DNA of 64,000 nt from Apostichopus japonicus (lineage: Eukaryota > Echinodermata > Holothuroidea > Aspidochirotida > Stichopodidae): contig NC_092568.1 of NCBI RefSeq assembly GCF_037975245.1, forward strand, positions 19,933,001 to 19,997,000. The letters run 5' to 3'. Below are positions 76-55,315 of this stretch, in pieces. The translations under genes were made by a program, and so were the position numbers. Numbering within the stretch: position 1 is the stretch's first letter; each line of letters starts with the position of its first letter. The notes beneath the pieces were generated by a model. The model worked only from the letters and a program-made list of their open reading frames with translations, was not told the origin of the DNA and made no database searches.

Positions 76-134
<59 letters not shown>

Positions 135-135
<1 letters not shown>

Positions 136-318
136 CTCAATTCAGCAGAAATCAGTAAGTCGCTTTGCCTTTACAACCATGCCGACATCTTCTCTATAAA
201 ATAGTTTCAATTCCTGCTACTCCTGGTCACTTTCGGTGATCATGCACTGAAGAAGAGCTAGTTTTGCTCGAAAGCTCTGCAAAAACCAAACATTGGCTGT
301 TTTACTTCCAATCACTTA
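135..318 (+). mobile_element. Probable Penelope-like element 3'-end remnant
   Basis: A short non-coding stretch lies between two AT microsatellites. Its only diagnostic feature is a core of the form CTGAAGAAG - short stem - CGAAA at 247-277, the same layout as the 3' end of the Penelope-like element at 52990-53935. No coding sequence remains. Assignment to this class is inference from the shared motif, and the boundaries are approximate. Confidence 0.4.
243..281 (+). ncRNA. Hammerhead ribozyme-like motif, copy A
   Basis: The conserved core CTGAAGA lies at 247-253. Helix II is GAGC (255-258) with GCTC (266-269), followed by GAAA at 270-273. A loopless helix III could form only A-U and G-C pairs, ending at a putative UC cleavage site (276-277). 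Helix I is TGCA (243-246) with TGCA (278-281). One extra A sits between the core and helix II. Hammerhead motifs are known from Penelope-like retroelements. Self-cleavage here is untested, and the loopless helix III suggests it would need a dimer. Confidence 0.45.
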
Positions 319-416
319 CCTATATATATATATATATATAGATATATATAGATATATATATATAGATAGATATATATATAGATATATATAGATATATATA
401 TACAATGTGAGTTTAA

Positions 417-11200: not shown

Positions 11201-14200
11201 TTGATGATGATAGAGATAATTCTGAGGGTATCAGCTGCAACTGGTACGGGCACCAAGGGTGCTGCATTACAAAGTAAAAATTTATGGTCATCTTACACAT
11301 TTTGTGACCTATTTGTTCCTTCTGCTGCTATCAGCTGTTGTCATTTGTTTTAGCACATTTACTTAATTCTATCTGCTTCCTTCCTCTGTTTCTATTCTTG
11401 CAAAAAATGTTTGTTGCCGTCGAAATTCATAGATATATATTTTTATTAATTATCCATCGGCAGGAATATATGCCTCTGCATATGTAGATGAGCCATCTTC
11501 ATCAACGGAGAAGAGAAAACTCGAAGGGGATTCCTCTGCTCTGTCTTCAAAGAAGAGCCGTCTCTGGTAAGCTACATATGATTCAGGTCAATTAGTTAGC
11601 TGTTTAATTTCATTAACTCATGGCGAATGTATCAAACTTTATTGCATATGATTAAAATTTGATTAAATATTCAAAATTACCTTTGATCCTTTTTAGCCAT
11701 ATTTTGTGAGACTTGAGCTTTCCAGCATATATTTTCTGCATTGTTATGATATTTTTTAAATTTTAGAAGTATAATATTTTAAGGAAATCACAAAAATACT
11801 GCTTTTTGAACAGACCTCATGCTCTGATGTCACATCTCAGGAATGTAAATTCAGATCCAGTCTTAAATTTGTTTCTAAGTTTTTTGAACCTTTTCAACTC
11901 TGCCACCTGGTATGTCTCATATCCCATTTTGAGGGTCCTTTGAAATCCATTTTGTACCTATTTAGTACCTATCTGTTTTGTAAAATCATTAAAATGTTCT
12001 GCATTAAATGGTTCAATAACCCACTAGCTACATTAGGAGTACTCTAAACATTGTATTTCCACAAATATCTCTTGATTAGATTGAAGGCCTTCCACTGAGG
12101 TATGAATATTTCTTAGCTAACTCCAAATCAAGTATAGTTTCCTAACCAATGCTACGGTTTTGGGGTCCTTTGAAATCCATTTTGTACCTATGTAGTACCT
12201 ATCTGTTATGCAAAATCATTAAAATGTTCTGAATTAAATGGTTCAATAACCCACTAACTATATTAGTAGTACTCTAAACATAATTATTTGTGGAACAACA
12301 ATGTCATTGTATTTCCACAAATATCTCTTGATTAGATCGAAGCCCTTCCACTGAGGTATGAATATATCTTAGCTAAATCCAATTCGAGTATAGTTTCCTA
12401 AACCGATGCTACTAATTTTAAAAGAATCATTATCTTATCATCAAATCATATTTTCTTTGCATTTCTTAAGACTTCAGTCATACTTTCTTTTGGATAACAA
12501 TTCATAATTTATAGGCTTGGAGTTGAAGTCGATAGTGACTCTGATGATTCTGATGAAGAGAAAGAAACATCGCATTATTCAAAGGTCAAAGACGATGATA
12601 GTGACTCCGATGATTCAGATGAAGAGACAGAAGCAACGTTTGATTCAAAGGTCAAAGAGGACAAATGTCCCTCTGAATCGAAGTCTGTGCAATCGCCTCT
12701 CATCAAAGATAAACCACTAATCCCTTCAGAAGGTGCAACACCGGGACACAAAGGGGACCATGAACCTCCAACAAATGTTAGCGGGATGGAGGAGAATCCC
12801 ACACAAGAAGAAGGTGCTGCTCAGAATGCTGAAGATAAATCAAATAAAACCACTAAGGAAAACCCTAACGCAAGCAAACAGGTGAATGAAATGATTGAAA
12901 ATGGATTGGTTTGACCTGAGATTTTTTTATCTTTTTTTATTCTGTTTTACAACCTTTTATCTCACTTTAAATGTATGACAATGTCATTGTTCTTTTTGCA
13001 GCTTGTTTCGCTCATATATAGGCACAGAGACAAGTGATCTACAGAGACCAAAAATAGTGTTCCGGACAACTTTTCTTTGGTTTGCTGGATTTTTCCAGAT
13101 GTTAAAAAAATTTATCTCCAGTTTTTGTAGCTTGATGAGATTGACTAATTTTCTATTTTTAATTTAACATCAATCCCTAACTCTCGTGCATTCTGAGCAT
13201 AGTTTCTGAAGGGGTTAGGATGTGATAGTTTCTAGCACATTCCCCATAGAAGAGCTTGGGTCGTGGTCCTCAAAGTTTGCCAACCTCAGGAACCAGACAT
13301 TCAGCAAGTTGTTTGCAGTACAAGTATACATAGTCTCGATGTTGTTTTTGCGGGCGGGATGGGGTGAAGGAAACGGTGCTTGAGGTATTGCATTTTTGAG
13401 AGAGAGGTCAGGAATAGCTCTGTCCTCATTGTTAATGTAACTTAAGTGAGTCAATATCCACGAGCGTTGAATGTAGACTTGACGACTATCCCTGTTTAAC
13501 AGGCAGATGCAAAATACCAATCGCAACATACATGTAATCAGGTTTGGTGTCTATGTTACTTTTTAGTATTTGCTATCTTTTCTCAAATTGTGGCATTTTG
13601 TCCAACCTAGGGATGCACCGGATCCAAATTTTTGGATCCGGCCAGAACCGGATTTGCCGGATAGTACATGAAATCCGGCCGGAACCGGATTTTTTCATTA
13701 CACAAAAGAAAATCGTTAATAAGAAGTAGAAGTAGGCCTATGAAACAAGGAGCAAATCTTAGGTGAGGTATACGCATATTATAAAGAAGGTGAAATTAAG
13801 ACCCCATAAATGAGATTAAATATGACTTGAAGTGGTGCAATCTACATTCTTTAATAAAGTAACTACAATATAATTGTTGACAAGCTTGATATAGTATGTA
13901 AAATTGTTTGCTGGAAAAATACTGCATACTACCTATGAAGTTTGTTTTTAAACGGGAAGCTACATTTCACAAATCTCATACTTTATACTGAATAAAAAGA
14001 TTATTTAATTGTTGTAGTAACACTACTATTGTTGTAGTAACACTACTAGTGTTAGCTCAGTGGTTAACGCCGGTGCCTTTCAATCATAAGGTCCCCGGTT
14101 CGAGTCACTCCCAGATTAATGTATGTCATCCAGTTACAGAGTTGTTGACAATTAACAATTCATAATCATGGACGTTAAAGATGAATGTAAGAGACTGACT

Positions 14201-15790
14201 TCGGTCAGCTTGCGACCTTGATAAGCCAATGAGGCTTCTTCGCGAGTTCCTGCTTGCAGGAGGATCTAATATATATACATACATACTGTCAGGATTTAGA
14301 ATTGTCTTTTATTATTCATTATTTGGTAACAAATTTTTACACTGCAATATTATCTGTGAAAAAAAAAAAAAGCATTGCATCTTTCCAGAAGTGGAAGAAA
14401 CTTCTTATCTATCTTTTATCTATCCTTTAAAATGGAATTAAATGTTCATTAGAACACTTAATGATTTATGTTTTTCATGAACTTTTAGGAACTTTCATGG
14501 TGACAAGAGATATCTCTTTCTGTGAGAAAATTAGATACTGTTTTTTCTGTGACTGGCACCCCATTTGGTGGAAACTCTTCTAGTCCATTGCTTCATCTAT
14601 TTATAAAAGTGCCACAATTACAATTTGCACATTGCCATGATCACAAACAATGAGTAACAATTGACAGCTTTCTAGACAGGAAATGGACTGTAGTGGTCCA
14701 CAAAAAGATCCATTGTTTTGACTTCTTAAGGTCCTAATGCACATGTTTGGATTTTGGACATTTCATTTCATGCAAGTGTTTCTCTCTGACCATATTTAAG
14801 AGATTGTTTCACACATAAAAATTCAGAGAAAACATGAATGCCAACAATAATGGGAAAGTAAAGATTCAATGGAACAGTATTTTGACTGATAAGTATATGA
14901 ATGGTCTATTTTAACTGCACAATATTAAACTGATGAAGGCTGCAAGAATGATTTCACTGCAAACTGTATTTGTTGTATATAGCTTCATATTATTACAGTA
15001 GTTGTATTATTTTGGTTGATCTTTAGAAACAGTGGGTCAGACCATTGAGAAAATTAAATTAAACATGTTAAACCTAATTTTTCCTGTTTTTATTAATTTT
15101 TGGAAATAGGTTACATTGATTTAAGTTAATACCAACACTATTTAAGGAATAATTCAGGCCAGATTTTGAAAAAGATCCGGGCAGATTTTGAAAAAGATCC
15201 GGCCGGATTTTGAAAAATATCCGACCGGAACCGGATAATTTCTCACTATCCGGCCGGATAGTCCGGCCGGACCGGATATCCGGTGCATCCCTAGTCCAAC
15301 CCTTCCTTTTTCTTTCTTTAACTCTGTATTTTTCGGTGATGGGAACTTGTAAAATATCCATTTTTTTTTTTTTAAATATCCATTTTTTGTGAAAGAAAGG
15401 ATGGCAGGTCTGTGGTTGTTTTCTAAGTCATTAACACAGTCCTTTGTCTAAAAGTTAACAAGGAACTTTCAGTAGCTTGTTCCCCCATATTGTTGTTACC
15501 TTTTGTGTGGGTGTTTGTGTCAGATGCATCTAGATGTTGTTATCGTGTTTACTCATTCATTCACACAGGTAATGACTGCATTAAACCTAGAAGAGGTTGA
15601 AACTGTAGCCGAATTGGAAGCACTTGGTCTAGATCAACTGAAAAAAGAGCTCATTTCAAGAGGTCTGAAATGTGGTGGGACTTTACAACAAAGAGCAGAG
15701 AGGCTGTTTCAAGTCAAGGGACTATTACCAGAGCAAATCGACCCTTCACTAAAGGCAAAGCCTCCCAAAGTGCTCAACAAAAACTTGTAA
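5220..15790 (+). CDS. SDE2: SDE2 (replication stress, telomere and splicing protein), 7 coding exons
   Basis: Coding exons: 5220-5324, 7191-7308, 8519-8630, 10713-10882, 11464-11566, 12515-12881, 15569-15790. They total 1197 nt (398 aa) with compatible phases. Residues 1-72 form a ubiquitin-like fold ending LRLRGG; then K73[18 protein letters not shown], the SDE2 signature. In known SDE2, cleavage after the GG exposes a Lys N-degron and the processed protein acts in PCNA-linked replication-stress control, and in splicing in yeast. A basic helical region ([14 protein letters not shown]) follows, then [10 protein letters not shown], the motif [14 protein letters not shown], and an acidic Ser/Asp linker. 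The last exon is a SAP domain (about 330-380, [20 protein letters not shown]). An upstream in-frame ATG at 5094 would add 42 residues with no similarity to the UBL, so 5220 is preferred. Confidence 0.93.
7661..7725. repeat. Perfect 27-bp inverted repeat (hairpin) in SDE2 intron 2
   Basis: The left arm 7661-7687 (begins GAAAGATGTAATTTGTTCC) and the right arm 7699-7725 are exact reverse complements around an 11-base loop rich in G and C. The short direct repeat GTTGATTACATAATCCG lies just to its left. There is no coding content. It could be a fold-back element relic or a cruciform-forming palindrome. Confidence 0.85.
8906..8952. repeat. Short GGTGTACCT tandem repeat
   Basis: Four to five imperfect units of GGTGTACCT/TGGTGTACC lie in SDE2 intron 3. 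There is no coding meaning. Confidence 0.7.
9921..10320 (+). mobile_element. tRNA-derived SINE with CORE-like body and (AAT)n tail
   Basis: The head resembles a tRNA with pol III promoter boxes: TGGTCAAGTGGGTAAGG (box A region) and GGTTCGAGCCC (box B, near 9974). The body contains CCTTGGGCAAGGCGCTTTATC, like the CORE segment of MIR/CORE-SINEs. The 3' end is AGGGCCTTGGCCCTGTACA followed by (AAT)n. It lies in SDE2 intron 3 in the sense direction. Confidence 0.8.
11933..12414. repeat. Tandem duplication, unit about 230 bp, in SDE2 intron 5
   Basis: Two diverged copies begin with GGGTCCTTTGAAATCCATTT at 11933 and 12163 and end near ATGCTAC. They differ by scattered substitutions and a small insertion in the second copy (near 12280-12305). 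Confidence 0.85.
13608..15293. mobile_element. Non-autonomous hAT-like element in SDE2 intron 6
   Basis: Terminal inverted repeats TAGGGATGCACCGGAT at the left and ATCCGGTGCATCCCTA at the right enclose 1686 bp. They are flanked by an exact 8-bp target duplication, GTCCAACC (13600-13607 and 15294-15301), the size typical of hAT transposons. Many CCGGCCGGAT/AACCGGAT subterminal repeats, possible transposase-binding sites, occur at both ends. No transposase ORF is present. A tRNA-derived SINE (14050-14286) has inserted inside it. Confidence 0.88.
14050..14286 (+). mobile_element. tRNA-derived SINE, family S1, copy 1 (nested in hAT element)
   Basis: The tRNA-like head has TTAGCTCAGTGGTTAACGCC (box A) and GGTTCGAGTCACTCC (box B). 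The body is shared with three other copies in the window and includes CCAATGAGGCTTCTTCGCGA. The 3' end GCAGGAGGATCTAATA runs into a short (TACA)n tail. Confidence 0.88.
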
Positions 15791-21010: not shown

Positions 21011-24000
21011 TTAAAAGTCAAACGAGTCGGCCAAACTACTACCTAGAGGGATACCCTTGCAGTAGCTTGAATCCACATGTAATCCAAATGGAATGTTTGG
21101 AGTTGAAAAGTGACCTTTGATGAAAAGGCTGTCTGGTAATGTGGTTATGGTGCACTCATCTAGTCCGACACCTACACTTGTGTATTCCAGTTTCTTCTGT
21201 TTCTGTCTGTTGGTAGTAGACTTGGGATGATCCATCTGTCAATTATGAGAAAAATGTAAGACTTTCAGTCATAAACAATCCATTGTAAACATATTTAAAT
21301 TGGTTCTTGTTTTGTTTTTTTTTCTACAAAAAATGCCTTCAATTTCACAGTTGGCCAAGTAGACAAATATGGTTTCTATATACAATTGTATCTATATATT
21401 TTAGATCCTCCTGCAAGCAGGAACTCGTGAAGCCTCATTGGCTTATCAAAGCCGTAAGATGACCGAGGGCAGTCTCTTACATTCATATTCAACGTCCATG
21501 AATATGAATTGTCAATTGTCAACAACTCTTTAACTGGACGACATACATTAATCTTGGAGTGACTCAAACTCGGGACCTTATGATTGAAAGGCACCGGCGT
21601 TAACCACTGAGCTAACACTCCTAAATTGCTATATTTGATCTTGATGATCAGACAGTGTCAGGGCATTACTCTCCGAGACACAACTAGTTAACTGCCCCAT
21701 AGGTCTCTACGTCACTGAAGTAAGTTAGTCGATCCATATTCCAGCCTGGTATAAGGGTACATGAAGATATTATTTTAACTAGGCTGTATGGGTTCATATG
21801 TTGTTTTGTAAAGCAAAGAAACCACCGAGGCAAAATATTAGGCCTACTGATTAATGAGTATATCCTAGCCAGAAGTGGTATCAGCATGTTAACATCTACC
21901 ATGGAAGATAATTAAGTCAGTGTGGTACGATTTGTTTTCAAAGAAAGGAAAAATAAAATTAATTTAATTTAATCTATTAAGAAATTTGCCTTTGTGAGTA
22001 AATGAAAGAAAAATTGAAGCCTGGTACAGTATCTGTCAAATCTTTAGAAGTTCCTGTAACAGTCAAGGATCAAATAAACACAGGGTCCATGTACTTTCGT
22101 CGTCCCTACAACGGAAGACCATTTAATAAAGATAGACGTCGAGAGAAAAGCTGCAAGAGGCAGGCCTAGGGAATATCTTGGAGAATCAGAATTATCTCTC
22201 CCCACCACCAGTGGCGTAGGAAGGTACTTTTGAGTGGGGGGGCTGAAGACTGATGGCCGGCCTGGGGGAGGGGTCTAAGCAGTGGCGTCACCAGACTTTT
22301 CAGTCTGGGGGCACAGGGGGCACCAGCATTTGATGGGGGGTACTTAGGTGGATACGGATCTCCGTCCTGGGGGAGGGGTCTAAGGGGAGGGGGTGCCCCC
22401 TCCCCTTTGGAAAATTTTCGCATACGGAGGATGGGCTAGATGCAAAATGGTGCCACATTTGATGCTAAATTCGATCTGAAGATATCTCCAGAAATTGCTA
22501 TTTTTGAGGTAATGCTTTTAACAACGCGCAGAATTTTGCAGAGGATATGAACCACATGCTGTCGATATTATGCCTAACCCTATCAATAGAACCTACATTT
22601 GTTGAATTAATGTGTGCATGACCCCCGACTCCTTTCTTGTCCTTCTCGTTTTCTCCCATTATCCGAAAATACGAATTACTGTGCTTCTTTGTCCTTATGA
22701 AAAACCAACTCAGATGATGGGAGTTGAATATAACAAAATATATGTATTTTTTTTTACCAACCCAAATCTCAGATGGGGGGTACTCGGTTGGGGTGTCCCC
22801 CTCCCCTTTGGAATTTTTTTTCATTTCCAGGTGGCCTCAGATGCAATTTGGTGCAATATAGCACATTTCAACACCCAATTCATTTTGTATATAATTTTGC
22901 ATTTTCACCTGGCCTTATAGATGCAATTTGGTGCTCCAAATGAGATATTTTCTCATTTGGAAATGAAAAAGGGGTTTTCTGACTCGCGGAGCGGGGGGCG
23001 GAATGATACTTCCGCCCCCCATATTTTTGACTGGGGGGGCTGGCGCCCCCCCCCCCCCCAGCCCCCCCAGTTCCTACGCCCTTGCCCACCACCCCAACCC
23101 ACCACCCCCACTTGGTACCAAAAATTGCAAGGTAACACCTTTAATGATTTTGATGCTTAAAACATGTTGCTTGCACACTCCAATCATGCTACATGATCAC
23201 ACTGTAAAGATATGCAAGTACCGTATTGTAAACATGATCACACTATAAAGATATGCAAGTACCGCATTGTAAACAGTACCAATTACCTTATTGACGTCTA
23301 CCTCATCGGCAGATGATGGCCATAGTCTCAGGGAACATCTTCTCTTCAATGGTCTGTTTGGAATACTACCTTCAGGACTTGCCCTCTTTAACTGCTGACT
23401 TGGAGTTGAATGGTTAACAGTTGCTGGAGATAATTGTGCGGGGCTCTGAAATAAATTTAATGGGAACAGTAATTCATTATTGATATTCTGCCAGTGATAA
23501 ACTTAAACAATGTATTTAAGTTGATACCAAATACAGTCAACACTTTAAAAGAAAGAAACTTTTATGACTTGATTTGATTCAAGCCTTTATTAAAAGTCAT
23601 GCATATTGTTAATGGTGAATCATCGCTTTATGCAGCATGCTCATGCACATCTACTAAGTCTTGATAGAACATTTTTTTTTTTTTTGTCATGTGTCAAACC
23701 ATCGGTGGGCAAAATAGTTTACATGAAACAGGTTTTGTGAAATTATCCATGATCCTTTACATCTCTCTACCTGATAAACCGAGACATTATCCCATAATAC
23801 AACAATCTGGTTAAATTTAATACAAGGTAACAGACTAACAACAGAAGAAAGATAGCTAGCAGGAAATATAGCTAGTGAAGATATCGAAAGATTGTTTATA
23901 TCAAATGTACTTTATTTTGATGACATCGAAAAGAAACATTTGGTACTTGGTTGAAACTTTAATAAATAGATCAAGATGACTGAAAGAGTTTATCATGCCA

Positions 24001-37100: not shown

Positions 37101-39862
37101 CAGGGGCGTAGCGAAGGGGTTTTTGTTGGGGGGGTGTGGAGAATTTGATTTGCCGACGGATCTGGAAGTGGTTACTGAAATGGGGGAGGGGTCTAAGGGA
37201 AGGAGGTGTCCCCCTCCCCTTTGGCAATTTTTTAGTTTTGAAACGTCCTTCGATGCAATCTGGTGCATATTTTAAGTCAAATTTGATTTGCCGACGGATC
37301 TGGAAGTGGTGACTGAAATGGGAGAGGGGTCTAATTTTTAGTTTTGAAACGCCCTTAAATGCAATCTGATGTATATTTTAAGTCAAATTTGATTTGCCGA
37401 CGGATCTGGAAGTGGTGACTGAAATGGGGGAGGGGTCTAATTTTTAGTTTTGAAACGCCCTTAGATGCAATCTGATGTATATTTTAAGTCAAATTTGATT
37501 TGCCGACGGATCTGGAAGTGGTGACTGAAATGGGGGAGGGGTCTAAGGGTAGGGGGTCTACCCCTCCCCTTTGGAAAATTTTTAGTTTTGAAACGTCCTT
37601 AGATGCAATCTGGTGCATATTTTAAGTCAAATTTGATTTGCCGGCGAATCTGGAAGTGGTGACTGAAATGGGGGAGGGGTCTAAGGAAAGGGGGTGTCCC
37701 CCTTCCCTTTGGCAATTTTTTAGTTTTGAAACGTCCTTAGATGCAATCTGGTGCATATTTTAAGTCAAATTTGATTTGCCGACGGATCTGGAAGTGGTGA
37801 CTGAAATGGGGGAGGGGTCTAAGGAAAGGGGGTGTCCCCCTTCCCTTTGGCAATTTTTTAGTTTTGAAACGTCCTTAGATGCAATCTGGTGCATATTTTA
37901 AGTCAAATTTGATTTGCCGACGGATCTGTAAGTGGTGACTGAAATGGGGGAGGGGTCTAATTTTTAGTTTTGAAACGCCCTTAGATGCAATCTGATGTAT
38001 ATTTTAAGTCAAATTTGATTTGCCGACGGATCTGGAAGTGGTGACTGAAATGGGGGAGGGGTCTAATTTTTAGTTTTGAAACGCCCTTAGATGCAATCTG
38101 ATGTATATTTTAAGTCAAATTTGATTTGCCGACGGATCTGGAAGTGGTGACTGAAATGGGGGAGGGGTCTAATTTTTAGTTTTGAAACGCCCTTAGATGC
38201 AATCTGATGTATATTTTAAGTCAAATTTGATTTGCCGACGGATCTGGAAGTGGTGACTGAAATGGGGGAGGGGTCTAAGGGTAGGGGGTCTACCCCTCCC
38301 CTTTGGAAAATTTTTAGTTTTGAAACGTCCTTAGATGCAATCTGGTGCATATTTTAAGTCAAATTTGATTTGCCGGCGAATCTGGAAGTGGTGACTGAAA
38401 TGGGGGAGGGGTCTAAGGAAAGGGGGTGTCCCCCTTCCCTTTGGCAATTTTTTAGTTTTGAAACGTCCTTAGATGCAATCTGGTGCATATTTTAAGTCAA
38501 ATTTGATTTGCCGACGGATCTGTAAGTGGTGACTGAAATGGGGGAGGGGTCTAATTTTTAGTTTTGAAACGCCCTTAGATGCAATCTGATGTATATTTTA
38601 AGTCAAATTTGATTTGCCGACGGATCTGGAAGTGGTGACTGAAATGGGGGAGGGGTCTAATTTTTAGTTTTGAAACGCCCTTAGATGCAATCTGATGTAT
38701 ATTTTAAGTCAAATTTGATTTGCCGACGGATCTGGAAGTGGTGACTGAAATGGGGGAGGGGTCTAAGGGTAGGGGGTCTACCCCTCCCCTTTGGAAAATT
38801 TTTAGTTTTGAAACGTCCTTAGATGCAATCTGGTGCATATTTTAAGTCAAATTTGATTTGCCGACGAATCTGGAAGTGGTGACTGAAATGGGGGAGGGGT
38901 CTAAGGGAAGGGGGTGTCCCCCTTTCCTTTGGCAATTTTTTAGTTTTGAAACGTCCTTAGATGCAATCTGGTGCATATTTTAAGTCAAATTTGATTTTGC
39001 CGACGGATCTGGAAGTGGTGACTGAAATGGGGGAGGGGTCTAATTTTTAGTTTTGAAACGCCCTTAGATGCAATCTGATGTATATTTTAAGTCAAATTTG
39101 ATTTGCCGACGGATCTGTAAGTGGTGACTGAAATGGGGGAGGGGTCTAATTTTTAGTTTTGAAACGCCCTTAGATGCAATCTGATGTATATTTTAAGTCA
39201 AATTTGATTTGCCGACGGATCTGGAAGTGGTGACTGAAATGGGGGAGGGGTCTAATTTTTAGTTTTGAAACGCCCTTAGATGCAATCTGATGTATATTTT
39301 AAGTCAAATTTGATTTGCCGACGGATCTGGAAGTGGTGACTGAAATGGGGGAGGGGTCTAATTTTTAGTTTTAAAACGCCCTTAGATGCAATCTGATGTA
39401 TATTTTAAGTCAAATTTGATTTGCCGACGAATCTGGAAGTGGTGACTGAAATGGGGGAGGGGTCTAAGGGTAGGGGGTCTACCCCTCCCCTTTGGAAAAT
39501 TTTTAGTTTTGAAACGTCCTTAGATGCAATCTGGTGCATATTTTAAGTCAAATTTGATTTGCCGACGGATCTGGAAGTGGTGACTGAAATGGGGGAGGGG
39601 TCTAAGGGTAGGGGGTCTACCCCTCCCCTTTGGAAAATTTATTTCGAACGTCCTTAGATGCAATCTGGTGCATATTTTAAGTCAAATTTGGCACGGAAGA
39701 AGCTCCCGTTCTCCTTTTTCTATTCAGCTTTCCTTCTTTCTTCCCCTTCCGCTCTCTTCACCTTTTCTCCTTTTGCCGACAGACCCAAAATTTGCCGACA
39801 GCGACCAAATTATTGGGGGGGGGGTGTGACACCCCCCACACCCCCCGCTCGCTACGCCCCTG
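37101..39862. mobile_element. hAT-like element with a 21-copy internal satellite
   Basis: The left terminus CAGGGGCGTAGCG and right terminus CGCTACGCCCCTG are exact inverted repeats. They are flanked by an 8-bp target duplication ACTAGAAC (37093-37100 and 39863-39870). Nearly all 2762 bp are tandem repeats; a short unique right part (about 39690-39862) remains. No transposase is present. Apparent ORFs are by-products of the repeats. Confidence 0.9.
37141..39690. repeat. Satellite array, about 21 units of 106 or 135-140 bp
   Basis: Each unit starts TTTGATTTGCCGACGGATCT and carries GTGACTGAAATGGGGGAGGG. Short units (about 106 bp) go directly from GGGGTCTAA to TTTTTAGTTTTGAAACG. Long units add a 30-35 bp segment that is itself nearly palindromic (AGGGTAGGGGGTCTACCCCT, or a GTGTCCCCC variant). 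Short and long units alternate in recurring blocks, for example near 37909-38505 and 38505-38990, indicating higher-order duplication. Confidence 0.93.
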
Positions 39863-39870
39863 ACTAGAAC

Positions 39871-42207
39871 TGCATGCATTTGTGTCCAAAATAGGTTTTG
39901 TAATGCACAGAAGGGATGATGGGATACGAATTACTGCAGTCTGTTGGCTAATTTATGTAGCATATTATTGTATTTTATGGTACATGTAAATTAATGATAC
40001 TGTGTAAGTGAGGTGCGAATATATGGAACTGATACTAATGATGGAATTGATCCTAATTGATGAAAATACACATTTTTGGTTTAGAGCAGATGATCAGTTA
40101 GGCCCAACTTAGTCCAGACTTACAAACTATGAACATCAAACTTGACAAACTTCTGAGAATGTTTCCTAAAGTTAACATATAAATCCCAAGCCTAGCCTAT
40201 GACTGATAATGCTTTGTTTAGTTCGTTCAGTTTGTCTTCAGATGGGACGTATCAAGGCTCCCGATGGCTATGTGATAGTAAACACCTCTGCATTATGGGG
40301 TGTATTTTGTGATTGCACCAATCAATGCACCAAGGGTAAAAATTGAAAATAATTGCAGTCTTTTTGTTGGACTGCTTTGATATAAATGCCTAAATTATCG
40401 TACTTAAAACCGTTAGATTTATCCCCTATTATATTTGCTTTGATCTAAGTTAATAGTCTTGCCCATGGATTACTGAAATAGCAGATAACTATTAAAGCTG
40501 GGCCTTAACAATTTTAGTTTGTAGTAACAATTCCCTTCAATAAATAAGGTCTCATGAGTCAACTGTCATGGCAAAACAAAGTGTTAAAAACGTGATCAGT
40601 GTATATTACTTCCCTGTGAGACAGGGAGGTTGAGGTGGAGCTCGGGTGTGAGACTTACAGGGGGAACGTAAGTAAAGTATGTATGTATGGAAGCAGGAAC
40701 TCGCAACTCGCAAAGAAGCCATCATTGGCTTAACAAAGCCGCAAACTGACCGAAGTCAGTCTCTAAGATTCATATTTTAACATCCATGATTATGAATTTT
40801 CAACAACTCTGTAATTGGACGACATACATTAATCTTGGAGTGACTCGAACTCAGGACCTTATGATTGAAAGGCACCGGCATTAACCACTGAGCTAACACT
40901 CACTCCAAGTATGGGAGAGTAAGAGGGAAATATCACTATCAGTGTAATAGTCAATCATGTGATTTAGGGCCGGTGGTTGAGGGATATGTGTTACACAGAA
41001 AATGATGTTGAATATCTTCTGAATGAAAAAAATAAATGTCAGATGGAGAGAGTCGAGTAGCGAATAAATCTGGCGACCAGTACAGTATGCATGACGTATA
41101 GATCAGTGATTTTTGTTATCCTTTTAATGCTTTAATGCTTATATGATTCTTTCCTTCTTAATTGATGTCGATGTCGATAATCGGTTGTCGATCATAGCCT
41201 AACTTTCATGTTTGCCTATGTTGATTAAGCTCTCCAAAACAGAGCCCTGGAAAATAAAAAAATAAATTAAAAAAATCACAAGTGAGTGAATTTCTCCTCC
41301 AAATGTTCTAATATTCTAATCACTTCTGATCACCATTCACCACGAAAGGGAACAGATACTACCCATGCTCGCAAGGGAATAAATGCTACACAAGGTATAG
41401 CTAGTGTGATACAGCCGTGTAAACACTGAACCAGATTTCCATTAAAGTCTTCAAGATTCATACACTTTAGAGTCTGTCGCAATAGCCGAGCTTCCTTCTA
41501 GGAATGGCTTCCAAATGTTTGCCCTTTTCGATAACACAATAGGACCATGGACTGCCGACGAACCTCTTCTTTGCCGTTTTACACCTGGATGTACTATCAA
41601 TTAGTCAGGAATGTAAGCAGTCCTATTGATTGTCACCAGAACGGAAGTGATTGCGCAATAAGACCCTATAGTCCTATAGTGTTTTGCATATAATAATCGG
41701 CAAATATATTCCTTATTATCGTCATACACGATAAAGCTATATATAATTGCCAGTTAAACTCAATTGAAGTTAGACGAGAACAATTAACGGCTTCGTGTGA
41801 TTTTTCAAGAATATTTCATTATTACCTTGAGAGTGAATCAGGCGCAATACCAGTGGCATAGCCAGAGGGGGTGGGGTGGGGGAGGGGAAAGTGCTCCCCC
41901 ACAGAAATTTTTGACCGAGAATGAAACGGGGACGGGTGCAAAGAAAAATTGACAAAGGAAAAATAAATAGCTATGATTTATATTATACTGGATAGGCTAC
42001 TTGTTTTTATGTTACGGTGTTACATGTTCCTCAGATTATTCTGAACAAGATAACTTTGATTCAGTAATTGACACTTATAGGCAAAGTTCCGTGCGTCCGA
42101 TATGGAAGTTGATTGTCGTCTTCAATAAAAACACACCATCACCATTTGGGTCAAAATAGAGATATGAGATACCTGAGTAGACCTTCATCCACAAGTATTA
42201 TTATGTA
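39871..42207. other. Intergenic spacer with SINE and element relics
   Basis: No gene supported. It contains the S1 SINE at 40673-40901 and a terminal relic CAGTGGCATAGCCAG at about 41851-41865 next to a G-rich run. Confidence 0.55.
40673..40901 (-). mobile_element. tRNA-derived SINE, family S1, copy 3
   Basis: Reverse-strand copy with a short (TATG)n tail at 40673-40689, GAAGCAGGAACTCGC, the shared body, and box B/box A in reverse (GAGTGACTCGAACTCAGGACC and GAGCTAAC). It lacks part of the usual 3' end. Confidence 0.85.
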
Positions 42208-42215
42208 TTTGTAAA

Positions 42216-42582
42216 CAAGGGCGTAGGAACCGGGAGGCTGGGGGCGCCAGCCCCCCCCAGTGAAAAATATGGGGGGGTGGAAGTATCGTTCCGCCCCCCC
42301 GCTCCGCAAGTCAGAAAACCCCTTTTTCATTTCCAAATGAGAAAAAAATCTCATTTGAAGCACCAAATTGCATCTAAGGCCAGGTGAAAATGCAAAATTC
42401 TTTACAAAATGGAGTGGGTGTTGAAGTGTGCTATATTGCACCAAATTGCATCTGAGGCCACCTGGAAATGCAAAACATTCCAAAGGGGAGGGGGACACCC
42501 CCTCCCCTTAGACCCCTCCACCATGCCGGCCATCAGTCTTCAGCCCCCCCCCCCCACTCAAAAGTACCTTCCTACGCCACTG
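42216..42582. mobile_element. hAT-like non-autonomous element, family H2, 367 bp
   Basis: Left end CAAGGGCGTAGGAAC and right end TTCCTACGCCACTG, with an 8-bp target duplication TTTGTAAA (42208-42215 and 42583-42590). It is the inverse-orientation relative of 22209-23084. G/C homopolymer blocks lie just inside both ends. It is too short to encode a protein. Confidence 0.88.
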
Positions 42583-44883: not shown

Positions 44884-47800
44884 ATGTCTAAACTTGTTGC
44901 AGTTCTTACCCTTTTGGGTCACTTTATGAATCACAACGTTGAAGGTAAGGACTTTTTCATTGTATTATTTGTATATATATACCTAAATGATTTTTGTTAT
45001 TGGATTTAAGAATTGATCATTATAATTTGGAACAGAAAGTTAAGTATATATATTTGCTTTTAGTAACTAGAAAATGTTAGCACGGTAAGTTTTCTTTTCA
45101 AATTTCGACTTTATGATTTAGGCCTACATAAATTTTGCTTTGCAAGTGACTCTAAATTTTAAAAAGAAATGTAAGGTTATTGGAACATGTGCAATAAAGG
45201 GGCACTGGCATCGAATATTTTTTAATGGGCACATTTTACAAGATGTTCACTAGTGTCCCACTGCCCGGTCCCAGTCTGGGCACTTTTAATTCATGGATAG
45301 AGGGAATTTCAGTTTTCCATCGGTGACGGCGAGGGGAAGGGGTACCAGTTGTGTCCCTCCCGGGCTACACCGTCACTGCTTTTGATCGTCTATTAATCAT
45401 GTCCACAACACACACAAAATGGACAGATGCAAAAAAGGCTTACAAGCTAACGGGATAGTCAACCGTTAAATAGCCTACATGCTAACATAGATTAAATTAG
45501 CATATGGGATCTAAATTTGTTGTCGCTTTCTCAGTTTCTGGATGTAGAAAAAATGATCATTCCAAGAAAAGAAAATGGTGTTGGCGCGCTATTTCAAGCT
45601 CCTTCGATGCTTCGGGCCGCTTTAATATGAATGACAATAATATAATGTGTTCTTGTATATACCACCTCTAGACTGCAATGATAACATCCGTTTATGACAC
45701 CTTGTAATCATTTTCATTTGTTTCTTCACACATACACTTCCAACTTCTATAATTTACTGCATTAATTTAGCCTAGAAGATATCTTTCACGTAAAATTATT
45801 AATAATAATGATAATTATAGTGATAATTGCATAAGAAGAAGGAAAAGCAGGATTAAATATAAATAACAAGATTGACGGATGTAAGCATACATCAGCGTCA
45901 TCTATCGTAACGTAGCGGGGATCTTGAAGTTTTTTTAAAGTCATATAAATATGGAATAGGCTGAAAGGATATTAACCAGAAAAAGGACATAAAAGAAACA
46001 CCAGAGAGAAAAGTTCTCCGATGGAGTTGTGAGTTGAGTCACTTACTTCAGTTGATTTAATTTTGCTTAACTTTTGGCAAACTACGCTACTCTCGGTCAA
46101 AATCTAGGAGATACTTTTATGGTCAAGATTCAGGAGCTAATTGATCTTCAATACAAAAAAAAACTCTCAGAAACTCTCTATGAGGTAGACGCCTCTAAAA
46201 ATGACTGTAAAGTCTCAAACTTGTCAAAGAGAACTATTAGTATGCTATGAAATGGATAGCTACTGTACCTGTTAGTTACTGGACTTGTTTACGTTTAGTA
46301 ATCCATGATTAGTCACTCGACTATACCATTTGTACGAAATAATCAACTCATATATATGACACTAAAGTACTAAACTATATCACATAAAAGGGACTTCGGC
46401 GAATTGAGATTAAAGGTTGACTATGATATTATTACGCAGCATGTGCTTCACACAGCTGGTCAATTTAGAGAATTGTCGCACAACCCATGTCAGCGAAACC
46501 GGCAATTGCTAGCGACGTTTCGCCAGGGTCCATGCATGGGTACTATAATTTACATTTGAGGTAAAACGGAACTGAAAAGTCAACTGGAAATTCCTGAATA
46601 TGGTAATTTCGGTACATCTGTAGAGTTCTGCTCGGGGGTGTTATTGCGTTGCGGGATATTCTATTATTGCTCCTCTTGTGGAAGTCCAACGTAAGGCCTA
46701 GCTGTTACTGTTACAAACAATATGCCATAACATAGTGACCTAGCCTAGTCAAATACTACAGTACTGTAGTGTAGGCGCAAAGAAGAAGCACAGAACCTCT
46801 CAAGGTTATACATTAATGTTTTGTTAACGGTATAAGAATGGTGTGCAAACAGTGAAAACCCCTACAAATCTGGTATGAGGTTTATTGTAACTTGTTAAGA
46901 CTATACTAGCCTAGGCCTATATGCTACTTTACACTGTAACCTTTTTTTAATGCAATTTGGTCCTTCAAAATAGCTAATCTTAATATTGGCCTAGTGAATG
47001 ATAAAACATCATTGTATACTTTGTGAAACTTTCATGAATTATATCACTCAATAACCAGAATTATCTAATAAATATGCAATATTAGGGATCCATTTTTCCT
47101 TGCCCGCTTTGAAAGTTCTTAACTTTGTAACTCGATCTCATTCTCATTGGAGTGTTAGCTCAGTGGTTAACGCCGGTGCCTTTCAATCATAAGGTCCCCG
47201 GTTCGAGTCACTCCCACATTAAAGTATGTCGTCCAGTTACAGAGTTGTTGACAATTAACAATTCATAATCATGGACGTAAAATATGAATGTAAGAGACTG
47301 ACTTCGGTCAGCTTGCGGCATTGATAAGCCAATGAGGCTTCTTCGCGAGTTCCTGCTTGCAGGAGGATCTAATATACATACATACATACATACATACATA
47401 CATACATACATACATACATACATACATACATACATACATACATACATACATACATACATACATACATACATACATACACCCATACATACATACATACATA
47501 CATACATACATACATACATACATACATACATACATACATACATACATACATACATACATACATACATACATACATACATACATACATACATACATACACA
47601 CATACATACATACACACATACATACATACATTCTGGCACTATCGGATCAAACCATTAATGATGAAATCACTTAATAGTTGAAGGAAAGAATTTGCACTGA
47701 GCAAATTCAGAGAGATGGTTATGATAGTTGCCCTGTAGGCTGGCTTCAGAACTCTGTTTTCCTTTGGTATGCTGTAACTATTGCATGTTATGCATGGCTT

Positions 47801-50800: not shown

Positions 50801-53800
50801 CTGTAGAGATGTCATCACAGAAGGAGTGCCAGAGATTGCGGGCATCCAGGAATGCAGTGAGGAACAAAGCTACTGGAACTCAGCCAGCATTTCATGCCAG
50901 CTTGGGATAGTTCTCGATTCCTATGCTGAAGTCCAATGCTGTGGAAATGGTGAGTTTGATCTTTGCACCTCCCCCCCTTCATCCCCTCCAATACACACAC
51001 ACTACCAAAAGAAATATCTCTGGTTACTCTGCATTTCAATTGATGAAAAAATTCCAGGACATAAAAGTTTGGCTATGATTACCAACTCCCAAGTTTCTGG
51101 ATGACACTATCTGTAAATTTGAAATCATGAAATTGTCACGGAATAAGTTTTATTCGTGGAAAACGTTTTGTCAGTGGTTTGCTCTACCAAATGCTCTACC
51201 AGGACATTGGCCTTTAGTAGAAGTAGTACCGTATGTGGTTACCATAGCGACTGGCTCGCCTAAATAATAGACCCGTTAAATTGCAAACGAACCAGGTCAT
51301 TCATTGCCTAGAAAGATGGGCTTATTAATCTGTGATTTCCTTCTTAATTGTCTTTATTCAGAAGTCTTATCTATTACTGACCAAATCTGTTGTGCTGGAA
51401 AGATTCTTACCCGGACAGGGCCAGACGACATTTGCTGTGGTACTGAAATTCTGAAACCGAATGCATTCTGTGTCGAAGGTCGAATTGTGCTTAAAGAGAC
51501 ACACGAAGACTCGTACTGCTTGTTGCGAAATGATACCTTCAGGATTGAGAGGATTATTACTTACGACAGTAATGCATATGTAAGTAGCATTTAAAATGAT
51601 GTATTTACATACATATTTATATGAAGTAAATGAAAAATGAAAAACTGACTGGGGAATTCTAGACAATGGAAAAGAGCAAAGAAATTTATGGCTAGAAAGG
51701 GATTCGAACCAGTGACCTCTGGGTTACAAGCCATGTAATACCAACTGTGCTATACAGCCCTTAGCTGTTTGTGATCCCTATAAAGCAATTTCTTTGCTGG
51801 GGGGTGGGGGGCAGTCAGTAGTACCTTGCAACCACGTAACCAAGGATCATAACTAGGACATGACCCAGAAAGCGTTCAGGAAGGGATTTTGAGACAATCG
51901 GCTTTTGAGTGGTTTTAATGCAGTTAGCAAGATAATTTGGCTCCTGACTGATGACCCCAGCAAAGAATGTTCTAGCCAGCAAATGTATGTCCTCTTTTCC
52001 ACTCATATGCTTACCTAAACATCAAAGCATGCACATTTTTCTCTAATATATTGTTTTACAAGCTCAGCTACTCGTGGTTGCATAAATGACACACACCGGT
52101 ATTTTCTGTACCCTTAAGTGAAGCACATCGTGTGAACTGATGATTTTGTTTGTATCATCTGTACACCATGTCTATTTTAGAATTTGGTATGTATCCAACT
52201 TTGCTGGATCTTCTTTGTCTGTATTTTTACCTTAGATATGCAAAGATGGCGCCCTGGCTGTGAAGAAACCGAACCAGAGATACTGTGAAGGTGCGAAGAC
52301 GATCTACGATGTTCAGACAGAGATATGCTGCGGTCACATCCACGTCCATAAGAATACTAATCCCTGGGGTCTGGAGAGACGTTGCTGTGGTTACGGTGTT
52401 TACCACCCACAGGAACAGAGCTGCTATGGATATCATGTCTTTCAGATACCAGAAAGATTTGCTGAAATGTATGTCATCCCAAAAATTTCGATCGTTATTG
52501 TGTATCGTTAATGTTGTCGTATGCCCGATGTTTTCAATGTTTATACGTAGCACTCGTAGCTTTAATGTTTGTTGTAATAAACCATGAACTGTCCATCTGA
52601 ATGTGAAGCATTTTTATCAATATTTCATCACGTACACTGTGAATGGAATTATATCAGAGTTAACTCACCCATCAAAAGGAGCTGAGTTGTGGAAGAATTG
52701 TTTCTTTCAATAGATGAACAAAAATCAACTAGCAGTCTGTTATCATGTATCTCTATTTCACATCCTGTCTGCATTACATTGCAACTAAAACCCAGAACTC
52801 TGCTATACCAAATTTCTTTGTGTCATTAAGACTTCTGAAATCAGATATTGAAACAGGTCTTTGAATCAACATTTGTGAATTTCCCCCCCCCCTCTTTTCT
52901 GGCAAGTTTCAGTATAGTTGCAGCTGGAACATCCCTTCAAATATTAAATGTATTTATTTTGAATCACCTCTAACAACCACAACATTCTCCTCACTTCAGA
53001 TAGACTCCAACGAGCCATCCCTAAAAAACCCATCATCGCCTACAGACGACCACGCAACCTACGAGACCTTCTTGTACGTGCTGCTGTTCCACCTCTTACT
53101 TCTAACCCCACACCCATTCAGCATGGTACCTTCAAATGTGATCGTACTTCGAGATGCATCGTCTGCAGCCACCACATTGTTGAATCCAATTCCATCACCA
53201 GCCACAGCATGCAACTCACACACAAGACTAAGGGTCACATCACTTGCACTACCACCAATGTCATCTATCTGATCTCTTGTAGAGTTTGCGGCATCCAGTA
53301 TGTTGGCGAAACCAAAACCACCCTCAAGAAGCGTTTCTATGGTCACAGATCCACAGTCAACACCATGAAGACTGAGACCCCAGTTGGAGAACATTTTAAC
53401 CTTCCCAACCATACCATTAACGACATGTCCCTACAGGGGATTGAATCCTTAGGTAGCCGTCCTGACCTAGTACGTATCAGCAGAGAGAGGCTCTGGATGC
53501 AACGCCTTCGTACCATTCAACCTCATGGGCTGAACATTCAGGAAGGACATGACTAACTTTCCTCTGTTCCCTACTCCTTCTCCCCTTTCTCCCTTCCCCC
53601 CCCCCTTTCACTCTTCCTCTTACAGCTCTCTTCCCCTCCATTTTTCTTCACACCTTTCTGTCTTTGTCCCTCTCCAGTTTATTCCTCACCCTGTGCCTTT
53701 AATCCTCTCTTTGTCCCTCCACAGTTTATCTCCTTCCTCTCCTCTTCTCCTGTTGCTTTCTACTTATAATCCCCTTTCATCCATCTCATTGTGTTCACCG

Positions 53801-55315
53801 TGCTCATTAACCTGTCTGTATTCTGTGCGTGTTTTTGTCCCCTCTGTTACTGTAACTTGTCATTTAGCCTCTGAAGAAGATCCTGCTAGGATCGAAACGT
53901 CAGGCCAACTTACTTTTACACATGTATTTATTTTGTTATTTTTTAATGTTTCAGATGCAGTCTGTCTCTTTATGACAGTAGGACAGAAGTCTGCATTAAT
54001 GACCATATATACAGTAGAACCACCACAGAACTCACCGCCGAGATGTGCAGGAAGAGCAACGACCTCGCCGCCGCCTTTGACCAACATTGTTGCCAAGGGA
54101 AACCCATCAGTGACAGAACACACATATGCTGTGATGACCATGTATATTCCATAGAAGGCATGGAAAGTGAGTTTTAAAAGATTAGATTTCCCTGGAAAAT
54201 ATAGATAGTCAGGGGCTGGCTAGGCCTTTGACCTCCACAACAAGTGGTGTAGCTCAACCAACCCTTTAGAAAAGTTTAAATATCTGTTTCTATTCAAAAT
54301 AATCATCGTTGACATTTGTTGTAAATAGTTTAGGAAAAAAGTGACAATCCCATTTCTCTCTCCTCTGTTGTATGTCTTCTTTGTCACGTATCATTGTATC
54401 TGCCTTCAAAACAAAGTCCTATGATAAATAGATAGTTTAGGTATAAGTGATGGCACCTAAACAGTTTTAACACACTCCTGTCGTATATCACTCGCATGTG
54501 ACTGTTAACCTTCGATATTCCTGCCATTGTAAAAATGTTTCCCGACCTTATGTCACTCCTTTTATCCCCCAAAACACTCTAATTTGGACCAAACATCTTT
54601 TTGTCTTCCAACATTATCTCCCACACCACTGTTTCCAGCTGTTCTATTAACGTTACTCATTCCGTTGTGACAACCATTCCCATATAACTCACAAACATTC
54701 AGAGGGCAAAGTTTCAAATTTCCCCCAATTTTTTTTTCCTCATCAATAGATCCACAATGTTGTGGAAGACGGGTTGTCGATTTGAACGCTTTGGAAGCTG
54801 TCTGCTGTGAGGGAAGCTGGCATTTCACAGGTGGAGAAGCAAAATCTTGTATCGGTGCAGTAGCAGTCGCGAAACGTGAACGGTTGTGTGGCGATACCAT
54901 CTACCTGAGAGCCGACGGCCAGTGTTGTGGTAACGGCATTTACAACCCACGCACTCACTTGTGTTGCGATGGTGTCAGGTAAGGCATTTTGTAAAGACAA
55001 AATTAAAATTGACATGAAGAGGTTTATTTGAAGGGCTGTTTATAGCTGCCAACGAATCATATATTAAACCTTTGTTAAAAACTGATATTAAAAATCATAT
55101 ATCCTGCTCAACTAAGTTCTTTATAACTTTCTGGACACTCACATGACTAATGAGTTTTATAAGGAACTTTGCATTAAGATATTTTCAGTTGAAAAATTTC
55201 CCTTCTTTCATACATACTTCTCGAAAGATTTCAACCTCTCCACCTCACCCCCCCCCCCTTGTTACCTTATAACATTGATATCATTGATAACAATTTCTTC
55301 AGGTGTTGATGTCTT

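Follow-up and report, generated by a model that had tools for sequence, protein, structure and literature searches.

Here we describe two short motifs, copies A and B, in a stretch of 64,000 nucleotides of the Apostichopus japonicus genome (the window), which are very probably minimal type I hammerheads placed at the 3' ends, or pseudo-LTRs, of Penelope-like elements (PLEs) and of a kind that would act as dimers. Each motif comes from a PLE family of its own. From published work on other PLEs we infer that such motifs would cleave as dimers and act in RNA processing. Hammerheads of this kind are already known: reviews describe PLEs as carrying tandem minimal type I hammerheads that lack helix III and may cleave as dimers, and cite for this Cervera and de la Pena 2014 and Lunse, Weinberg and Breaker 2017 (PMC6155905, PMC7761336). 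The role of the PLE hammerheads is called unknown in the 2020 review (PMC7761336).

Each motif is 39 nt long and lies on the forward strand, copy A at 243-281 and copy B at 53867-53905. The conserved hammerhead core is numbered C3U4G5A6N7G8A9, G12A13A14, A15.1-U16.1 and H17. All of these positions are present in both copies, in agreement with the shared core claimed for these sites by the original prediction, and the same core recurs in the five rows of the alignment discussed below, where it was partly dictated by the search pattern. In copy B, helix I (GCCU/AGGC) is formed by 53867-53870 and 53902-53905, the core CUGAAGA occupies 53871-53877, helix II pairs 53879-53884 with 53888-53893, GAAA follows at 53894-53897, and the helix III half-site ACGU spans 53897-53900, with a predicted cut after C53901. 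Copy A has helix I UGCA/UGCA, helix II GAGC/GCUC, the half-site AGCU and a predicted cut after C277. Both copies carry an extra A between A9 and G10.1 (at 53878 in copy B and 254 in copy A), and in both helix III consists of 2 bp without a loop. The differences in pairing between the copies had also been read correctly: both partners have changed in 5 of the 11 pairs, and copy A no longer forms the fifth pair of helix II.

Motifs of this form are abundant in the window's own genome (671.6 Mb in 35 contigs). The pattern CTGANGAAG..CGAAANNTH, searched as CTGANGAAGN{4,24}CGAAANNTH, has 3,225 matches as against 54 for the reversed control pattern, a count that rests on a pattern requiring the extra A (the form without it would read CTGANGAG..). 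The first 100 of these 3,225 places gave 86 distinct rows once those with identical 40-base context had been collapsed, and together with the two window copies they make up a set of 88 copies, comprising 56 of family B, 16 of family C, 9 of family A, 2 of family E, 2 of group D and 3 unclassed. In their commonest forms (helix I, helix II, helix III half-site), family B reads GCCU/AGGC, GAUCC/GGAUC, ACGU; family A reads UGCA/UGCA, GAGC/GCUC, AGCU; family C reads AUUG/CAAU, GGUCC/GGACC, AAUU; and family E reads GCAA/UUGU, GAGC/GCUC, AUAU. The inner helix III pair is self-complementary in all four of these half-sites and in 68 of the 88 copies; TG or CA takes the place of CG in 14 of the remaining 20, which we infer to be a mark of CpG decay. 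At some loci (L087/L088, L090, L099 and L137) family B motifs stand head-to-head, inverted and a few dozen bases apart, an arrangement resembling the inverted pseudo-LTRs described for PLEs (PMC3846280).

A tblastn search of the same genome with the copy B endonuclease gave 2,750 candidates, 150 of which were scored, and several of the scored relatives sit in open frames of 923-953 aa. An identical motif lies downstream, on the same strand, of 19 of the 20 next-best relatives (as 400-bp pieces), several of which are neighbours in one array and hence not independent; its first core base falls 305-323 bp after the endonuclease match in those 19, and at 318 bp in copy B. Twelve more diverged endonuclease copies have no fully intact motif within 400 bp: the core is kept with one pair broken in 2, the motif is decayed in 7, and 3 have none. 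Family B also forms direct arrays with a unit of about 3.25 kb, including three copies 3,252 bp apart on contig C20 and three about 3,250 bp apart on contig C11, and all three units of the C20 array contain the identical motif, at 313 bp. Relatives of the endonuclease ORF were found neither in the viral contigs nor in the genome-contig collection that were also searched.

A reverse transcriptase (RT) domain is seen in families A and C. At one family A locus (L163), a frame with both RT and GIY-YIG domains, each recognized by Pfam, lies about 150 bp upstream of the motif and shows 39% identity to B. The family C locus L161 contains an 817-aa ORF with an RT domain (RVT_1, E 9.6e-14), the C-terminal part of which matches the family B endonuclease at 29% identity; for this frame Pfam reported no GIY-YIG domain, and a PDB sequence search gave nothing at E 0.001. 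The ORF is flanked by two identical 196-bp repeats 3,145 bp apart, each with the motif in the same direction, and the locus also has an inverted second copy. The motif thus has the place expected of it in the terminal repeat of an RT/GIY-YIG element, with both domains recognized by Pfam in family A (L163), RT by Pfam and the endonuclease by its similarity to B in family C (L161), and in family B the endonuclease by Pfam together with the motif downstream of its relatives. At the two family E loci there was no PLE ORF in the ORF lists and no endonuclease match.

Copy B itself ends a 5'-truncated PLE insertion of 960 bp (52962-53921, forward strand), delimited by a flanking direct repeat and by the ends of BLAST matches, which terminates 16 nt past the hammerhead and is cut off before the RT, a domain for which families A and C have Pfam RVT_1 matches. 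What is left of the ORF is its 3' part (52963-53556, forward strand), 197 aa up to the stop, with a GIY-YIG endonuclease domain (Pfam PF01541, E 5.9e-5) of the type found in PLEs (PMC1564403; PMC11167929); copy B starts 310 bp downstream of it, and a PDB sequence search with the 197-aa ORF gave a best E of 0.91. The flanking 14-bp repeat ATGTATTTATTTTG, at 52948-52961 and 53922-53935 on the forward strand, is a probable target-site duplication, a repeat of at least 14 bp having occurred by chance in 250 of 20,000 random window pairs with the same tight geometry and in 68 of 2,000 with a wider one. Of 18 other family B loci, 13 have BLAST matches across the motif that stop at 53920-53925, and in the remaining 5 the matches extend to 53934-53953.

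A galaxin-like coding piece (52236-52508, E 1.6e-6) lies on the upstream side of the insertion, on the same strand, and the frame at 53947-54174 downstream matches Galaxin_repeat (E 1.7e-5, 25.2 bits, under the curated cut-off of 28). The latter probably contains the next exon of the same gene, at 53955-54165 on the forward strand, with the acceptor and the approximate 3' end judged by eye; its likely start, 53955, is 50 nt after copy B. Since galaxin-like pieces occur on both sides and on the same strand, the PLE insertion is probably intronic and in the sense orientation, and copy B would be transcribed within the intron of this gene, shortly ahead of the exon.

Copy A lies in a repeat unit between (TA)n tracts (134-322, forward strand) that matches the region 3' of a family A PLE ORF: the unit is 97.9% identical over 189 bp to locus L083, where a GIY-YIG ORF precedes the match. 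A single open frame of 695 aa with PLAT and lipoxygenase domains, on the minus strand at 417-2504, lies about 135 bp away from copy A. Other repeats in the window are a 2.5-kb tandem array at 37142-39690, four dispersed copies of a repeat of about 200-240 bp (14048-14286, 21387-21621, 40705-40901 and 47149-47389) and an inverted pair of about 290 bp (22790-23084 and 42216-42501). Metazoan retrozymes are short tandem repeats, 150-400 bp long, that carry a complete type I hammerhead; the window motifs differ from them, each motif region being present once in the window and helix III being minimal.

The places at which elements begin and end relative to the motif bear on its role. By a rough rule, family B tails are short in 30 and long in 26 of the 56 copies listed. 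Upstream similarity among the 56 family B copies listed, in an analysis that excluded L109, is lost within 30 nt before the core in 18, within the next 70 nt in 7 and further away in 31. A repeat of at least 10 bp with its 3' copy 12-25 nt after the motif accompanies 13 of the 56 family B copies; at a place shifted by 50 nt the count is 5 of 56. Four insertions contain the hammerhead only: L081, L115, L104 and L129, of 61, 59, 113 and 133 bp, are flanked by repeats of 14, 11, 14 and 13 bp, respectively. Three of them start 2-3 nt before helix I and L129 starts 8 nt before it, and their 3' ends recur at two places, one about 17 nt past the motif and the other about 70 nt or more past it. Flanking repeats of at least 11 bp occur in 4 of the 86 rows listed, compared with a mean of 0.32 and a maximum of 2 in 100 swaps; a threshold of 9 bp shows nothing, with 6 of the 86 rows listed against a swap mean of 2.87, because the swap controls reach 9. 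Two rows with 9-bp repeats were set aside as (TA)n. We consider it possible, if doubtful, that the hammerhead with a short tail is itself mobile, with transcription starting about 3 nt before helix I and reverse transcription starting within the element, just after the hammerhead, so as to give insertions of 59-133 bp.

The same observations lend some weight to a tentative alternative, in which the RNA fold is real but its conserved role would be 3'-end recognition or a start signal for reverse transcription, self-cleavage being residual or protein-assisted. Family B copies tend to end at two places after the motif, so that motif and tail look like a 3' module, and the four short insertions hold little besides these two parts; moreover, an anole PLE is reported to cut only with protein and its insertion did not need cleavage (PMC11167929). 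Against such a role, the catalytic-core positions are the same across families with wholly different helix I sequences (part of the core having been required by the pattern), and a simple binding site would have no need of the palindrome that the half-site retains. This alternative is on the whole unlikely, and a dimer-type hammerhead remains our preferred reading of the motif.

The original prediction had also held that the helices covary, and had called for an alignment of further genomic copies. Covariation between copies A and B is weak evidence taken alone, since 17 of 500 shuffles equal it and pairing helped to find the copies. Paired changes are nevertheless found on extension to five chosen rows, one copy each of families B, A and C and two of family E, selected from the families that fold; 2 group D rows and 3 unclassed rows, which fold badly, were left out. 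In these five rows, 50 of 50 cells are paired, 7 of 10 pairs are altered on both sides and none is broken, with compensatory changes in all three helices. The covariation score is 0.960, as against a shuffled mean of 0.247 and values of at most 0.178 with the partner slid, and it is reached by none of 500 shuffles. The search pattern had already set pairs 10.1-11.1 and 15.1-16.1, most of the core and the extra A, which are uninformative in this respect. Paired changes across helices also speak against the motifs being conserved coding sequence with no RNA element. Motif B does lie inside an open frame of 206 codons (53534-54154), which reads EEDPARIETS through it, but in families A, B and C the endonuclease ORF has already ended before the motif, and for these two reasons we reject the coding reading as highly improbable.

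Within the window, copies A and B are the sole matches, on both strands, to a strict descriptor composed after the motifs had been seen (helix I of 4 bp, CTGANGA, 0-1 extra base, helix II of at least 4 bp, GAA, then a 2-bp helix III with a loop of 0-8, U, not G, and helix I), and 300 dinucleotide shuffles gave none. With the loopless descriptor, viral contigs totalling 349,277 bases gave no match, and the window gave none with any of 400 decoy cores. At none of 37 CTGAAGAAG..CGAAACGTC sites in the viral contigs do all four pairs of helix I form, or 4 or more pairs of helix II, so the core letters do not by themselves yield the helices; the exact helix II pattern is missing from the genome-contig collection. 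A model built from copies A and B (R1) scores them at 52-53 bits, with the next window site at 14.5 bits, and reaches 24.5 bits in viral loci chosen for their core letters; 19 further pattern sites from the viral contigs served solely as additional background for this scoring. Chance resemblance within the window, a reading to which the loose pattern CTGANGA..GAAA might appeal (7 matches against 3.77 expected, no enrichment), is rejected as exceedingly improbable given the shuffles of the strict form, the excess over the reversed pattern in the genome and the linkage to PLE ORFs.

Thermodynamic folding is unremarkable, with z of -1.50 for copy B and 0.08 for copy A. The covariance-model search that had been proposed as a check came out negative with the Rfam hammerhead models: cmscan gave nothing at the gathering threshold and no hammerhead around either motif up to E 10, neither copy reaching the Rfam hammerhead model at either threshold. 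Matches to a CRISPR repeat and to other Rfam families, with scores under gathering, were set aside. With the loose pattern unenriched, Rfam silent and folding energy ordinary, the case is made by core, pairing and context.

The extra A before helix II was correctly singled out as a departure from the textbook core, in which no base stands between A9 and helix II, and neither copy conforms to that arrangement. As a sign against the fold it loses its force, for it is common to families A, B and C, and the plus hammerhead of chrysanthemum chlorotic mottle viroid (CChMVd) has a corresponding base, A10, flanked by A9 and G10.1; this base is reported to reduce trans-cleavage moderately (PMC3705267). 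A designed ribozyme with an extra core adenine is also reported to have remained active, though slower (PMC12531169). The extra A of families A, B and C was seen as well with a search pattern that did not require it; family E was found with one that did. The form without it exists in the genome in a hammerhead-like group G (L167-L172), which reads CTGANGA-T-CGC..GCG-T-GAAACTCCGAG.. and is head-to-head in 3 of 6 loci. Helix III is longer and near-palindromic in this group, no similarity to the three PLE proteins was found inside the 3.2-kb pieces of L167-L172, and a U.U mismatch at the foot of helix II, as in this group, is also reported for one axolotl hammerhead (PMC7229834).

How the minimal form might work follows from its helix III. 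Helices I and II are intact, helix III amounting to A15.1-U16.1 plus one self-complementary, loopless pair; with a single inner pair and no loop, helix III has no way of closing inside one RNA molecule, so a single copy should not fold the active core. Where a tandem array is transcribed, copies of one family would pair two by two through the 4-nt palindrome (ACGU or AGCU) and swap helix I strands. The double hammerhead so formed would cleave both copies 3' of position 17, freeing element RNA of unit length. The contention that a loopless helix III makes tandem copies necessary gains support from the genome-wide arrays, the palindromic half-sites and the covariation, cleavage itself being predicted. 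Tandem copies with a self-complementary half-site do occur in the genome arrays, each window copy being single. Copies A and B could not serve as each other's partners, for they come from different families, and an A-B heterodimer was rejected because helices I and III cannot form jointly between them. In families A, B, C and E every pair forms in the homodimer designs, and each heterodimer design loses 5-8 pairs, so that processing should be confined to tandem RNA of the same family.

The double form has no advantage in the computed energies. For copy B the double hammerhead has -21.3 kcal/mol, the single fold -11.5 for each of two copies and another duplex -30.8; the corresponding values for copy A are -16.1, -8.4 and -20.8 kcal/mol, and the family E double hammerhead was computed at only -5.0 kcal/mol. 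The best co-fold of two short copies is this other duplex for A and for B alike. For the active form to prevail, it must be favoured by kinetics, tertiary contacts or protein. The anole PLE hammerhead is reported not to cut without the element's protein, and its mutation left insertion in vitro unaffected (PMC11167929), so more than dimerisation may be needed and the role may be dispensable. As neither window copy has a tandem partner in the window, both are expected to be inert or nearly so.

Among known systems, the published PLE minimal hammerheads resemble copies A and B in core, in their place in PLE repeats, in the absent helix III, in tandem arrangement and in the proposed dimer mode; a possible difference of the families counted here is the extra A after A9, which the main search required. 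The hammerhead of the anole element PAc (PMC11167929) is alike in stems I and II, core and pseudo-LTR place, and the PAc ORF is reported to start at stem II, whereas motif B contains no ATG and the window copy keeps just the 3' part of the ORF. The CChMVd plus hammerhead (PMC3705267) shares the extra A but belongs to a viroid, with an unrelated host and element. Satellite (retrozyme) hammerheads of newt and axolotl also have a weak helix III and are described as cleaving better as dimers, but they differ in their palindromic loop, loop-loop contacts, 330-350-bp tandem repeats and lack of a PLE ORF ahead (PMC7229834).

At least four families thus coexist in one nucleus with no cross-pairing between them by the design computation, and with all four half-sites, arrays with long ORFs and solo copies available in one genome, both the dimer requirement and family specificity are directly testable. 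The presence of the extra A in three or more PLE hammerhead families likewise makes its effect on cutting measurable there. Should the hammerhead with its short tail prove to be mobile, PLE machinery would scatter ribozymes through the genome, copy B standing just before a probable exon, and such a mobile unit would help to explain the abundance of lone minimal hammerheads.
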